Virus record (IMG/VR): IMGVR_UViG_3300030406_003266
Location: 2,797 to 26,452 of that record
DNA: 23,656 nt
Reading direction: 5' to 3' (one strand)
Origin: a virus
In this document: piece after piece, positions 808 to 5,034 of the stretch
Layout: each line of letters starts with the position of its first letter
Numbering within the stretch: the stretch's first letter is position 1
The notes under the pieces: model-generated
What the model saw: only the letters and a program-made list of their open reading frames with translations
Databases searched by the model: none
Told to the model about the DNA's origin: nothing
Translations under genes and position numbers: made by a program

Positions 808-2820
808 ATGTCTCTCGATTTACAATTCAATCTTGTTGGAGACGAGATCGATGATAAGTTACGCAAAGATATGTTGGTTTCATATTATGAAAACAACTTT
901 CATCTTATACCCTGTGGTTCAAGGGACGATGTAATACCAGATTATTTCAAAGCAAGGCATCCCAACGAAGAAGAAGATGTCCTTATCAAACGATGGTCAA
1001 AGACTCCAAGAGTCAAATGGTCTGACTACATAATCAATCAGCCAAGCAAAAAAGACATAGGCAGTTGGTACAAACAGTTTCCCAAATGCAATTGGGCAGT
1101 AGTAACAGGCATAACTTTTGTTGTATTAGATGCAGATTCGCAAGAGGCTTGTGAGTTTGTAGAGTCAGGCAAGATTACAAGAACGCCTCTCAAACAAAGA
1201 ACGCCCCGTGGTGGCTATCATTATTTCTACGCTATCAATCCTAATCTTACAATCAGAAACACAACAGGCAGATTAGACATCAGAGGTGAAGGTGGCTACG
1301 TCATGGTAAGCCCATCAAACAAATACATGTTTGAAACTGTGGACAACATCATCATAGATTCTATGGATGATCTACCCGTGCTCAACAGTCAGGATATGAA
1401 TGTTATCTATGACTTCAACAATGATGGCAAGATCAGTCTAGATAATAAGACACCTCTATCATTGGATGGTGTGCAATCTGGAATGCGTAACGATACGTTG
1501 GCAAGGCTTGTAGGCAAATGGATTCTAGAAGGTTGGGGCATGCGAGAGGTCATCATCAAAGCATTGGATTGGAATCAAACCAACAATCCTCCAATGAGCG
1601 TGCAAGAAGTATTACATACAACTAATAGTATTTGCTCTGGACATTTAAAAAGAAACCAAGAGGATACAGACGTTGGCATATTGAAATGGAATACAAGCCA
1701 ATGGCAGATAACACTAGCTGACGAACTCAAAGAGATTATGGATCAAGAAGATCCAATAGACCAACAGAAGAAACAAAAGGTAGTTGAAAGAGATCCATTA
1801 GGATTAAAAGCATTTAACGATCCCTTTTGGGATTCAATGGATTCAAGTCGTATCGAACAGTTTTGGGGTGATGCTTTTGTCTTTGAACAATCAAGAGTGT
1901 TGCTCCTTGGTAAGCCCAAGATAGGTAAATCACATTGGCTTGGGGCATTCGCTGCATCTGCTACGACAGGCACAGAGTTTATGGGCAAGCAGTTCTCTAG
2001 ACCTTTGAAGGTTATGTGGTTACAAGCAGAGATCATTCACGAGTTCTTGAAGAAGAGAATTGAAATGTATTACAGGCCTTATCATCACGACCCGGAACTA
2101 TACAACTTAGGCAAATCAAACCTGATAGCATCAGGCAGACTGAGAAAGAACATAATGAGAGATGGCGATATGGATTCAATAGCAGAAAGCATCGAGTATC
2201 ATAAGCCTGACTTATTAATGATTGATCCTATTATTAATTTCTTTAGTGGTGAAGAGAACTCTAACTCAGAGATCCACGAGATGTTATCAAGGGTTGATAA
2301 ACTTATAGAACTATTCAAGGTAGCAGTGATCATTGCTCACCATACAGGTAAAGAAAGGGCAGATGATCTGTCGTTCATGTCTGCTCGTGGTGGTAGTGCT
2401 TTTGCTGGTTGGATGGACTCAGGTATCAAGTTGTCAGGTACAAAACCAAACGTATCATTGTTCTACGAGGCAAGAAACGCAAGAGAGCCTGATCAACATC
2501 TAGCTTACTTTGACTTCGAGCGTGGCTTCTTTAGGGTGGTAGATGCACAAGACAGTCCTGATGAAGTAGAGATAGCTAGAGTTATAGCTGGAGCAATGAG
2601 TTCGTATAAGTTCTACACAAGGCAAGAGCTAGAGTTATTGGCTCGAACTGCATTGAAAGAGAAAGACTTAGCTTCGGGAGAAAGAGCAGCAAGGTACGGT
2701 GTATCACATGTTCAGAAGTATCTTGGAGATAAAGTAAAAACACATAGCGTACCAGGTAAGAACACTTGGTATTATTTAGAAGATAATCAAATGGAGAAAC
2801 CTTGGAGTAAAGATGATTAA
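808..2820 (+). CDS. Primase-polymerase / RepA-like helicase fusion
   Basis: A 670-aa replication protein. Residues about 60-190 look like the bifunctional primase/polymerase (Prim-Pol) N-terminal domain: VVLDAD gives the metal-binding D108 and D110, GGYHYF gives H138, and LDIRGEGGYVMVSPS follows. Residues about 355-560 look like a RecA-fold ATPase of the RepA/AAA_25 type, with Walker A GKPKIGKS at 368-375, Walker B DLLMID ending at D473, and an AHHTGK segment typical of this family. The C-terminal 90 residues may form a winged helix. The protein would make primers and unwind DNA at the phage fork. It starts 1 nt after the regulator gene, and its 3' end overlaps the Dcm gene by 8 nt. No separate DNA polymerase is seen in this window. 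Domain identity is firm; the exact helicase polarity cannot be judged. Confidence 0.9.
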   Translation: MSLDLQFNLVGDEIDDKLRKDMLVSYYENNFHLIPCGSRDDVIPDYFKARHPNEEEDVLIKRWSKTPRVKWSDYIINQPSKKDIGSWYKQFPKCNWAVVTGITFVVLDADSQEACEFVESGKITRTPLKQRTPRGGYHYFYAINPNLTIRNTTGRLDIRGEGGYVMVSPSNKYMFETVDNIIIDSMDDLPVLNSQDMNVIYDFNNDGKISLDNKTPLSLDGVQSGMRNDTLARLVGKWILEGWGMREVIIKALDWNQTNNPPMSVQEVLHTTNSICSGHLKRNQEDTDVGILKWNTSQWQITLADELKEIMDQEDPIDQQKKQKVVERDPLGLKAFNDPFWDSMDSSRIEQFWGDAFVFEQSRVLLLGKPKIGKSHWLGAFAASATTGTEFMGKQFSRPLKVMWLQAEIIHEFLKKRIEMYYRPYHHDPELYNLGKSNLIASGRLRKNIMRDGDMDSIAESIEYHKPDLLMIDPIINFFSGEENSNSEIHEMLSRVDKLIELFKVAVIIAHHTGKERADDLSFMSARGGSAFAGWMDSGIKLSGTKPNVSLFYEARNAREPDQHLAYFDFERGFFRVVDAQDSPDEVEIARVIAGAMSSYKFYTRQELELLARTALKEKDLASGERAARYGVSHVQKYLGDKVKTHSVPGKNTWYYLEDNQMEKPWSKDD

Positions 2821-4261
2821 GATATTAGATGTGTGTTCCGGGATAGGAGGATTCAGCCTTGGACTAGAAGCTACAGGTGGTTTTGATACTGTAGCTTTTT
2901 GTGAGTATGATGAGTTCTGTCGTAAAGTATTAAATAAACATTGGCCTGATGTGCCAATATATAAAGACCTAAAGGAGATTGGAAATGAACCAACAAGACT
3001 TATTCAAGAATTTGACCTCATCTGTGGAGGGGTCCCGTGTCAACCGTTCAGTGTCGCAGGAAAGAAAAAAGGCAAGGAAGACGACAGACACCTCTGGCCG
3101 TACATGTTTAAAATTATTAAGCACAAAAAACCCACTTGGGTCATTGTCGAAAACGTTGGTGGCTTCGTCAACGTGGCACTCGATGATGTGTGTCTTGACT
3201 TGGAAACCGAAGGTTACGCCACGCAATCGTTTATTATTCCAGCTTGCGGTGTCGAAGCTCCCCACAGAAGAGATAGAGTCTGGATCCTCGGAAAGCTTAT
3301 GGGCGACACCTCAAGCGATGGACGGTCTGAGAGTAAATCAAGTGAGAAAGAAGGAAGAGTTATCGAACAAAGCGAAGAAAGGAGGGTGCTCGAATCTAAG
3401 GGAGCAAGTGATGGAGGAGCCTCAGATGTGGATGACTCCAAGCGCAACGAACATATCGAAGAGATCGGAGGAGGGGATGGAGAAGAGAGAGAAGATGAGA
3501 AACGACAGGGGGAGGAAGACAGTACCTCCAGGATCTCTAGCGGAGCAAGTGGACTACGGGTATCCGATCAAGGACATGAAACAAGTGAGCATGTGGCCAA
3601 CTCCAAACGCTTGGGACTCAAACAGGGGTCCACGCAGTCAGAAGAATTTAAAGGAGAAAAAACATCAAATCAATCTAATAACAGCAATAAAAGACGCAGA
3701 GAGCGAGGATCCGCACAAGATGTGGCCGACTCCAGCAGCAAGGGATCACAAGGACACAGGGGAGAACACGGACTACGAGAAACTAGCGAAGAAGAGCAAG
3801 CTTTCAGGGGCGGTGAAGAGCGAGATGTATCCAACACCGAGAGCATCGGAAGTAGCAGCGACAATAACAGTAGAAGCAGCACTCAACAGGATAGAGAAGA
3901 CAGGGTACAAAGCGAATCTAGAGGAGAACGTAGCTCTGAGGGAACAGAAGATGTTTCTAACTCCGGGGGCAAACGAGGACGCAGCGGGCAAACCGACAGG
4001 CAAGATGCAAAGGATGTTGGGGAACTCACCGGAAGTCAGGAACACAGGGAAGGGAACGCTGAACCCGGATTGGGTGGAATGGTTGATGGGCTATCCTCCA
4101 GGTTGGACGGACATCACGGATTTGAAGTAGAACCCGACATCCCAAGGGTCGCAGAGAACATACCTGATCGAGTCAACAGACTCAAAGCATTGGGTAATTC
4201 AATCGTGCCTCAGATCATTTATCACATAGGCATGGCTATATTAGAAGAGGAGAGAAAATAA
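2813..4261 (+). CDS. dcm: DNA (cytosine-5) methyltransferase with disordered recognition region
   Basis: A 482-aa Dcm-type enzyme that would transfer a methyl group from S-adenosylmethionine to C5 of cytosine. Motif I is DVCSGIGGFSLGLE (from residue 6), motif IV GGVPCQPFS carries the catalytic C76, motif VI is ENV (113-115), motif VIII is HRRDRVWILG (151-160), and the motif IX/X end is RVNRLKALGNSIVPQI. Residues about 164-425, where a target-recognition domain is expected, are instead low-complexity Ser/Glu/Gly/Arg/Asp-rich, with recurring D-V-(A/S)-(N/D)-S elements. This is exactly the stretch that is dual-coded with the internal gene at 2985-4130. ATG 2813 has GGAG at 2804-2807 and overlaps the primase stop. 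In phages such enzymes usually protect DNA from restriction. Whether this one has normal target specificity is uncertain. Confidence 0.9.
   Translation: MIKILDVCSGIGGFSLGLEATGGFDTVAFCEYDEFCRKVLNKHWPDVPIYKDLKEIGNEPTRLIQEFDLICGGVPCQPFSVAGKKKGKEDDRHLWPYMFKIIKHKKPTWVIVENVGGFVNVALDDVCLDLETEGYATQSFIIPACGVEAPHRRDRVWILGKLMGDTSSDGRSESKSSEKEGRVIEQSEERRVLESKGASDGGASDVDDSKRNEHIEEIGGGDGEEREDEKRQGEEDSTSRISSGASGLRVSDQGHETSEHVANSKRLGLKQGSTQSEEFKGEKTSNQSNNSNKRRRERGSAQDVADSSSKGSQGHRGEHGLRETSEEEQAFRGGEERDVSNTESIGSSSDNNSRSSTQQDREDRVQSESRGERSSEGTEDVSNSGGKRGRSGQTDRQDAKDVGELTGSQEHREGNAEPGLGGMVDGLSSRLDGHHGFEVEPDIPRVAENIPDRVNRLKALGNSIVPQIIYHIGMAILEEERK
2985..4130 (+). CDS. WxTPxAxD-repeat protein encoded inside dcm in the +1 frame
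   Basis: A 381-aa frame lying entirely inside dcm. The internal ATG 2985 has its own AAAGGAG at 2971-2977, 7 nt away; a TTG at 2979 is a poorer alternative start. Residues 40-100 hold NPLGSLSKTLVASSTWHS, LTWKPKVTP, RLLFQLA and TEE. After that come six spaced units of the form [ML]-[WYF]-x-TP-x-A-x-[DNE], each followed by a basic stretch and an L-x(2,3)-V-like end. The protein closes with LNPDWVEWLMGYPPGW. I recall annotated phage proteins with WPTPTAxD repeats and an NPxWVEWLMGxPxGW ending near or over phage Dcm genes, but no known function. This makes both frames likely to be real. A role with the methyltransferase, such as supplying or modulating target recognition, is inference only. Confidence 0.75.
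   Translation: MNQQDLFKNLTSSVEGSRVNRSVSQERKKARKTTDTSGRTCLKLLSTKNPLGSLSKTLVASSTWHSMMCVLTWKPKVTPRNRLLFQLAVSKLPTEEIESGSSESLWATPQAMDGLRVNQVRKKEELSNKAKKGGCSNLREQVMEEPQMWMTPSATNISKRSEEGMEKREKMRNDRGRKTVPPGSLAEQVDYGYPIKDMKQVSMWPTPNAWDSNRGPRSQKNLKEKKHQINLITAIKDAESEDPHKMWPTPAARDHKDTGENTDYEKLAKKSKLSGAVKSEMYPTPRASEVAATITVEAALNRIEKTGYKANLEENVALREQKMFLTPGANEDAAGKPTGKMQRMLGNSPEVRNTGKGTLNPDWVEWLMGYPPGWTDITDLK
3297..3980 (+). repeat. Six dual-coded repeats within dcm and the internal gene
   Basis: Six related segments begin at about 3297, 3426, 3591, 3720, 3825 and 3951, spaced 105-165 nt. In the internal frame they read LWATPQAMD, MWMTPSATN, MWPTPNAWD, MWPTPAARD, MYPTPRASE and MFLTPGANE. In the dcm frame the same bases read MGDTSSDG, DVDDSKRN, VANSKRLG, DVADSSSK, DVSNTESI and DVSNSGGK. 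The repeat is therefore visible in two proteins from one DNA segment. Confidence 0.85.
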
Positions 4262-4560
4262 TGTTACCGAAAGAGTATCAAGATTATTTTGACAACATGA
4301 TGTCCAGAATGGACAACGCAAAGGTTCACAAATGCCCGGAGTGTGGTGAATCTAATTGGGGTATGACTATAGAACCTAGTGTATCTTTAGTCTGTAACAA
4401 ATGTGAGTATTCATATGTAGATGATCTACTGAATCGTATGATCGTACCGTATTTGCCTAAGACACAAAAAGAATATGAGGAACAGAAAAAGAATAATCCT
4501 CTTGTTCATTTAAGTGTTTTGAGCAAAGTGTTTAGATGTTTAGGAAAGAAGGAGAAATAA
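4261..4560 (+). CDS. Small zinc-ribbon protein
   Basis: A 99-aa protein with two CxxC knuckles, CPEC (residues 25-28) and CNKC (45-48), spaced as in a zinc ribbon that would bind one zinc ion. Its C-terminus is basic and Lys-rich. ATG 4261 overlaps the dcm stop by one base (TAATG), and GAGGAG lies upstream inside dcm, so translation is probably coupled. Zinc ribbons of this size in phages often bind nucleic acid or a host protein, but I cannot assign a family. Its place after primase and dcm suggests a replication or modification accessory role. Confidence 0.75.
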   Translation: MLPKEYQDYFDNMMSRMDNAKVHKCPECGESNWGMTIEPSVSLVCNKCEYSYVDDLLNRMIVPYLPKTQKEYEEQKKNNPLVHLSVLSKVFRCLGKKEK

Positions 4561-4562
4561 TT

Positions 4563-4721
4563 ATGCCTCAAAAGCTAACAGGACGAAAAAAAATTACAAA
4601 AGCCGGAAGAACAGCTCAAGATAATTTTATTAAACACGGCATTAGAAATATAGACGATCTGGATAAAAACTCTAGAACTTATAGAAGACTTGTAAAGAAA
4701 GGAAAAAATAAAAGTGTATAA
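4563..4721 (+). CDS. Small basic hypothetical protein
   Basis: A 52-aa, strongly basic protein starting MPQKLTGRKKITKAGR. ATG 4563 is preferred over an in-frame upstream start at 4536, because GGAG at 4551-4554 sits 8 nt before it and the upstream start would lie inside the zinc-ribbon gene. It is the last gene of the left plus-strand operon before the TGCAC-rich non-coding stretch. No family is recognised. High charge and size fit a small nucleic-acid-binding protein, but this is a guess. Confidence 0.65.
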   Translation: MPQKLTGRKKITKAGRTAQDNFIKHGIRNIDDLDKNSRTYRRLVKKGKNKSV

Positions 4722-5034
4722 AAAGTGCATAAATGAGTGCGTAAAGTATGTCGAAAAACGGCTGTGCAATGGCGAAAGGTCGAATTGCACATGCACCCCT
4801 GAAAGGTGCATTCTTAAAGGATTCTATAGGGTGTGCGGTTGTGCAGTTGCACATACCTGCACATATGCACATGCACCTCTGAAACCCTTGATTTTACTGG
4901 TACGTGCAGCTGTGCGCATGTGCATCTCTATAGAGAACTATAGATGGGTGGCTAAACGCACCCAATCTTTGATAGAGATAGGTTCTCTTAGATATACATA
5001 TATGTAACAATAAATACACATAAAATAACTAATT
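4722..5034. repeat. Non-coding TGCAC/GTGCA motif cluster upstream of terS
   Basis: This stretch has no convincing gene and is dense in TGCAC and its complement GTGCA. Two near-identical 19-bp copies lie at 4786-4804 and 4866-4884, with one difference (C or T) and exactly 80 bp apart. AGGTGCAT (4804-4811) and ATGCACCT (4871-4878) form an inverted repeat, and GTGCA-GT-TGCAC is a palindrome near 4840-4851. Further palindromes are CTCTATAGAG (4926-4935) and ACATATATGT (about 4995-5004), and TGGGTG/CACCCA makes a hairpin at 4945-4964. A related TTGCACAATGCAC occurs at 8935-8947. The position directly before the small terminase gene suggests a pac/cos-type packaging site or a replication origin; this is inference. 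Confidence 0.55.

Follow-up and report, generated by a model that had tools for sequence, protein, structure and literature searches.

The window, a stretch of 23,656 nucleotides that is a portion of a 26.5 kb virus record, carries a dcm gene with a second gene nested inside it in the +1 frame. The two very probably encode a two-subunit phage C5-cytosine DNA methyltransferase, in which the nested (beta) chain would give target recognition and motif IX in trans to the Dcm (alpha) chain (Table 1). In the arrangement that we propose, the long frame would give an alpha chain made of the catalytic motifs I–VIII, a disordered linker, and motif X, and an internal Shine-Dalgarno sequence and ATG would start beta in the +1 frame. 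Beta would have an N-domain that overlies the codons of the catalytic core, followed by six target-recognition modules and motif IX, and would end where the motif X region of alpha starts; the Dcm frame stays open across the modules solely as a bridge. Alpha and beta would come together as a single enzyme, which would recognise its targets through the beta modules. The DNA that it methylates would be that of the phage itself, and protection from host restriction is the most plausible purpose. Phages exchange modules as cassettes, so the array probably determines the identity and number of the methylated sites, which would make the enzyme multi-specific.

Table 1. Features of the nested methyltransferase locus in the window (positions are those of the window).
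Feature	Position	Strand	Remarks
dcm (putative alpha chain), 482 aa	2813..4261	+	C5 methyltransferase motifs I–VIII, predicted disordered linker, motif X; without a motif IX of its own
AAAGGAG Shine-Dalgarno sequence of the nested gene	2971..2977	+	7 nt 5' of the ATG; overlapped by an in-frame TAA (2970–2972)
Nested (putative beta-chain) gene	2985..4130	+	381 aa, +1 frame; phrog_1008, E=2e-38
Nested codons 1–40, N-terminal tail	2985..3104	+	Without measurable constraint; shadow of Dcm motif IV
Nested N-domain (TSGRxCLxLL...LTWKxKxTPxxRLLFQL)	3090..3296	+	Overlies Dcm catalytic-core codons up to motif VIII
Dcm-frame linker beneath the modules	3293..4129	+	S/G/E/R-rich, stop-free, residues unconstrained
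Putative recognition module 1 (LWATPQAMD...)	3297..3425	+	Family in 29 loci
Putative recognition module 2 (MWMTPSATN...)	3426..3590	+	Family in 29 loci
Putative recognition module 3 (MWPTPNAWD...)	3591..3719	+	
Putative recognition module 4 (MWPTPAARD...)	3720..3824	+	Family in 44 loci
Putative recognition module 5 (MYPTPRASE...)	3825..3950	+	Family in 42 loci
Putative recognition module 6 (MFLTPGANED...)	3951..4052	+	Family always final in the array
Motif IX-like element of the nested protein (GTLNPDWVEWLMGYPPGWTD)	4053..4112	+	Near-invariant in 75 diverse proteins
Dcm-frame EPDIPRV and motif X (NRLKALGNSIVPQI)	4130..4216	+	Dcm conservation returns at the stop of the nested gene

The original prediction was that dcm contains a long internal frame with a start of its own. 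The nested ORF lies entirely within dcm (offset +1) and runs for 381 codons from its ATG to a stop at 4128–4130; the AAAGGAG 7 nt upstream, overlapped by a TAA in the nested frame, bears out the separate start. The motifs quoted for the product are all present (TWKPK, RLLFQLA, six xxTP modules, and the C-terminal WVEWLMGYPPGW). A frame open for 1.15 kb is far beyond chance. With the Dcm protein held fixed and its synonymous codons resampled, weighted by the codon usage of the other genes of the window, the nested frame was open in none of 20,000 resamplings (mean of 17.7 stops). With the nested protein fixed instead, the Dcm frame was open in 0/20,000 (mean of 34.1 stops). A Shine-Dalgarno match of at least 6 nt precedes the nested-frame start in 129 of 223 loci, compared with 7 for the third frame and 0 for the Dcm frame. 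A copy of the locus with 99% identity is present in another contig (L006), which speaks against a local sequencing error in the window. The search of the 381-aa protein against phage proteins, which had been suggested as a check, gave a profile match to phrog_1008 over residues 3–377 and tblastn matches in 76 annotated phage records (Paenibacillus, Lacticaseibacillus, Klebsiella, and others); no Pfam or NCBIfam family was matched by the nested protein.

The Dcm protein matches PF00145 (E=5.7e-45) and has the hallmarks of C5 methyltransferases: motif I, the PCQ of motif IV, the ENV of motif VI, and the RxR of motif VIII. The PCQP, EN, and RxR columns are invariant in an alignment of 55 sequences. 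Its alignment with M.HhaI from the PDB covers residues 3–159, with motif X as a weak second match at 450–472. Motif X is in the same chain as motifs I–VIII (residues 455–468), and the helices modelled there by AF2 are confident. The recognition domain and motif IX are absent between motifs VIII and X of this chain and are found in the nested frame instead. Conservation drops from about 0.7 to 0.05–0.3 across residues 161–440 and recovers at residue 440 (nt 4130); residues 161–439 are unconserved, predicted to be disordered, and devoid of a motif IX. The AF2 model, built from a 55-row alignment, is confident only over most of the catalytic core (residues 1–165) and the motif X helix, and residues 166–448 mostly have a pLDDT below 50 and nearly no secondary structure.

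Two small ORFs follow dcm in the window. One is zinc-ribbon-like (CPEC...CNKC; 4261–4560; weak match to Zn_ribbon_8) and starts on the final base of the dcm stop codon. The other, a cysteine-rich ORF of 97 aa with a GTG start (4714–5007), lies between dcm and the gene of the small terminase; it is overlapped by two minus-strand ORFs and may be spurious.

The N-domain of the nested protein is predicted to form a helix and a beta-hairpin (pLDDT of about 90 for the hairpin), and both frames are constrained from nested codon 41 onward. It is followed by an array of PTP modules of about 30–55 aa. We counted 713 of them in 225 nested proteins (median of 41 aa, at most 8 per locus), and clustering at 60% identity gives 165 families, of which 33 occur in at least five loci. 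Most of the common families are found at varying positions and next to varying neighbours, and one cassette type (xPTPNASDNRDRG...) is shared by marine phages and a P. polymyxa plasmid. The array ends in an element (LNPxWVEWLMGYP) that is placed directly 5' of motif X in the split and single-chain relatives described below. Its best reading is motif IX, mainly from this position and from the PTP-type relatives. A profile of the IX–X segment compared with two canonical methyltransferases aligned motif X alone; after Phasih and Nyxis had been added, the comparison gave 94%. Searched by HMM against PDB sequences, neither the nested protein nor the IX–X segment gave a useful match. The AF2 model of a minimal nested protein (L026, 174 aa, 75-row alignment) has a pLDDT of 64 and a pTM of 0.28, and Foldseek found no fold match for it in the PDB (best E of 1.3).

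Scans of IMG/VR and GTDB contigs identified at least 545 viral and at least 256 genomic relatives; the analysis used the best 80 from each scan. All four landmarks are present in 226 loci, some of which are overlapping stretches of one contig; in these, the nested frame is +1, motif IX is in the nested frame, and motif X is in the Dcm frame. In later scans, 150 of 159 loci show this arrangement, the exceptions being partial contigs, one split locus, and apparent indels. Most loci were found with the nested protein as query, which biases the set towards a conserved nested frame; the full-length loci found with the Dcm protein as query (L006–L036) all keep the nested frame open. About five of the 226 loci have an internal stop in the Dcm frame, which could reflect decay or assembly error. 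The claim of a functional nested gene requires that no locus interrupts this frame and keeps Dcm, and there is no such case among the 226 loci: L110, L111, and L112 have stops in the nested frame only ahead of a duplicated or extra tail.

Some loci depart from the common layout in other ways. In EBPR siphovirus 2 (JF412297; L005, 491–2986), an intein with LAGLIDADG_3 and Hint domains sits within the catalytic PCQ motif of dcm, and the nested frame begins inside the intein-coding DNA, which fits a dispensable stretch of 40 codons at the start of the nested gene. The nested ORFs of L017, L051, L074, and L075 have a helix-turn-helix-like insert of about 110 aa in the module array, after WPTPTTMDTKEDS or WPTPTTMDSKEDS; its family is present in 15 loci, is dual-coded with the Dcm frame still open, and has weak matches to homeodomain/HTH Pfam entries. 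In the P. polymyxa plasmid pAP1 (L112, 2500–3560), the 3' tail is duplicated: the nested ORF stops at the first motif IX, additional stops follow before this frame reaches a second copy of motif IX, and the Dcm frame is open through both copies. In L133, L137, L183, and L262, both motif IX and motif X are out of step with the upstream frames, as if by one indel between the N-domain and motif IX, which may be a sequencing error or a real frame change. The matches in Citrobacter plasmids look like partial relics.

Relatives that code the same parts in other layouts place the modules in the enzyme. In 13 split loci of marine viruses, the Dcm frame ends a short way past motif VIII, and the nested protein continues in frame into motif X (RLKALGNSIVPQI). 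These loci have 206 Dcm-frame stops in 2,607 codons, compared with none in the 11,633 codons of 52 nested loci. Among the cassettes common to both kinds of locus (proteins at least 60%, and up to 90%, identical), 45 of the 48 split copies contain Dcm-frame stops, against 1 of the 141 nested copies. A separate gene codes for the module-IX-X part in Arthrobacter phage DrYang (gp77/78, 71 nt overlap) and Streptomyces phage Euratis (gp33/34, 32 nt overlap). Single chains, such as gp22 of prophiT49-1 (an M. abscessus prophage) and the enzyme of the mycobacteriophage Phasih, contain motifs I–VIII, PTP modules, a W-M-GW motif, and motif X. Since the PTP modules of the single chains stand between motif VIII and IX–X, they are at the position of the recognition domain of C5 methyltransferases. 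The module model scores 18.5, 12.9, and 10.9 in Nyxis gp77 and 11.8 and 9.3 in Phasih, against 5.0 for the best shuffled sequence. PHROG 1008 matches the C-terminal part of a single chain (2.8e-64), the separate gene (9.9e-72), and the nested protein (2e-38), and the module-IX-X part of Phasih has matches in 571 actinophage-type records. In Mycobacterium phage Nyxis (L274, 1994–2581), the beta chain of a split methyltransferase is gp77, whose frame extends without a stop for about 50 codons further upstream, under gp78; the annotated start may be too far downstream.

We scored the substitutions between loci that are 75–97% identical by their effect in each frame, and bootstrapped the loci. Under the modules, dN/dS is 0.20 [0.18–0.22] in the nested frame and 1.67 [1.52–1.85] in the Dcm frame, these ratios being simple counts, uncorrected for multiple hits, from locus pairs that are not independent. 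Both frames are constrained at nested codons 76–110 (0.34 nested, 0.31 Dcm) and 41–75 (0.41 nested, 0.62 Dcm), and at codons 1–40 constraint is found in Dcm only (nested NN/NS of 0.96 [0.87–1.07], Dcm 0.25). Control values from phantom +1 frames were 1.40 for the 5' part of dcm and 0.97 for the upstream gene. The rate of change at Dcm-synonymous sites is 0.44–0.50 outside the overlap, 0.12–0.16 under codons 41–110, and 0.04 under the modules. Codon choice follows the overlap as well. Nested T-ending codons that would stop the Dcm frame make up 203 of 699 in the split loci and 0 of 3,634 in nested loci from the same marine set. In Dcm, Leu/Val codons that would interrupt the nested frame number 0 of 3,360 under it and 640 of 1,820 upstream. 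This avoidance in both directions, together with the stop counts, implies that selection keeps both frames open.

These patterns indicate that the nested gene is a protein-coding sequence under selection. It had been described as real and conserved, which holds with one correction: the conserved part starts only at about codon 41, and the first 40 or so codons have no measurable constraint. Constraint limited to the Dcm frame, which would have spoken against the claim, is not seen, the nested frame being the constrained one under the modules. That both frames are functional stands in so far as selection keeps both open, but not for the Dcm residues under the modules, which are unconstrained. 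The wider claim that two conserved proteins share the same 1.15 kb does not survive, since dual protein constraint is confined to nested codons 41–110, about 210 nt. Nor does the Dcm frame seem to carry the recognition region, as had been assumed: its residues under the modules are predicted to be disordered as well as unconstrained, and the recognition region would be that of the nested frame. Under the modules, the nested protein is thus the one whose sequence matters, with the Dcm frame merely kept stop-free.

The same evidence bears on other explanations of the locus. The nested ORF might be an untranslated shadow that looks conserved because Dcm is. This is scarcely credible, and we reject it for the modules on per-frame constraint, single-coding relatives, and codon resampling. 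The constraint under the modules lies in the nested frame and is absent from Dcm; in the split, DrYang, and Euratis forms, modules of this kind have a single coding frame, that of beta; and resampling under a fixed Dcm protein never left the nested frame open. A shadow would account at most for codons 1–40, with their lack of constraint. The resemblance of the N-domain is partly forced, because Dcm motif VIII dictates some of the +1 sequence, and the +1 frame of the Phasih single chain scores 17.7 bits with the N-domain model, yet is not a beta gene there. A real nested protein could still be a separate phage product, e.g., an anti-restriction or regulatory factor, which shares only the DNA with dcm and has no part in methylation. 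In favour of this, the nested protein has neither a Pfam or NCBIfam domain nor a fold match. Related single-chain methyltransferases, however, contain its modules and final motif, and the split loci have motif X on the nested protein, which makes this reading very unlikely. It is most likely that the nested and Dcm products belong to one enzyme as its two subunits and are not unrelated proteins.

Two further explanations keep the locus a methyltransferase and change how it is built. Programmed ribosomal frameshifting could fuse both frames into one long enzyme instead of two chains, and in the split loci one +1 shift past motif VIII would indeed yield the full I–X order. In the nested loci, however, the shifted product lacks motif X, so that two shifts would be needed; nested codons 41–110, which lie 5' of any shift, are constrained in the nested frame; a stop, a Shine-Dalgarno sequence, and an ATG are conserved just upstream; and M.EcoHK31I, as described in PMC3404938, functions as two polypeptides. 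We judge such a fusion unlikely. Alternatively, the Dcm frame could be complete, with recognition residues in its middle and beta an accessory chain that brings motif IX only. This is the assignment proposed for M.EcoHK31I in PMC3404938. The middle of Dcm is unconstrained, of low complexity, and predicted to be disordered, and it varies with the module content, all of which renders a complete Dcm a highly improbable reading here. We retain the two-subunit enzyme with recognition modules in beta.

A broader proposal, which we hold to be about evenly balanced between right and wrong, is that these loci form a widespread phage class. In this class, an exchangeable array of 1–8 modules on a nested, dual-coded beta would reprogram a shared catalytic chain for several sites at once; the 'recognition region' of alpha, possibly that of M.EcoHK31I too, would be a shadow that tethers motif X; and the N-domain of beta would be a new domain overprinted on the catalytic core. 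A literature search found no paper on the phage class, on the nested layout in phages, or on the constraint pattern. Long same-strand dual coding in prokaryotes has usually been argued from single cases. With hundreds of loci and their split and single-chain sister forms, the frame under selection at each place can be seen directly, and the evolution of overlapping genes becomes measurable. Annotated 'Dcm' proteins of the nested class are probably only half an enzyme: Dcm cloned without the nested frame should fail, and specificity would have to be predicted from a +1 frame that is usually unannotated. The cassette arrays would offer a natural set of swappable cytosine-methylation modules.

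Several known systems share part of this organisation. Bacillus phage methyltransferases of the SPbeta/phi3T type have several recognition modules in one enzyme and are presumed to act in anti-restriction; unlike the window, they are single chains with canonical recognition domains, and have no PTP modules or nested gene (SPbetaL2 control). The phrog_1008 PTP-module methyltransferases of actinophages (Phasih, prophiT49-1 gp22, DrYang gp77/78) have the same modules, IX element, and PHROG, but are single chains or two genes with a short overlap. M.AquI (CYCGRG) has motifs I–VIII on one subunit and part of the recognition region with IX–X on the other (PMC3404938). The marine split loci, DrYang, Euratis, and Nyxis have this layout, whereas the window keeps motif X on alpha and has a fully nested beta. 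Paenibacillus phage Lily has the nested arrangement of the window in gp62/gp63, annotated by the depositors as 'g62 internal gene'. Its gp63 matches phrog_1008 (5.8e-44) and, unlike the nested protein of the window, has one short module; the record is without an analysis of function or evolution.

The closest likeness is with M.EcoHK31I, whose smaller-chain gene also lies inside the larger gene in another frame, as the beta gene does in the window (2985–4130 inside 2813–4261). According to PMC3404938, which cites Lee 1995, M.EcoHK31I (YGGCCR) consists of a larger polypeptide with motifs I–VIII, X, and a predicted recognition domain, and a smaller one with motif IX only. The window likewise has a larger chain with I–VIII and X and a smaller chain with IX, and the landmarks are in the corresponding frames in the 226 loci. 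In contrast to M.EcoHK31I, with its recognition domain in the larger chain, the modules are here in beta and the middle of alpha is unconstrained. Beta has 1–8 exchangeable modules and can exceed 600 aa; the comparison with M.EcoHK31I is one of described layout. M.EcoHK31I is the described precedent for the layout of the window, and the putative recognition modules in beta are the difference. This layout, known from one bacterial enzyme, recurs here across hundreds of phages and bacterial genomes.
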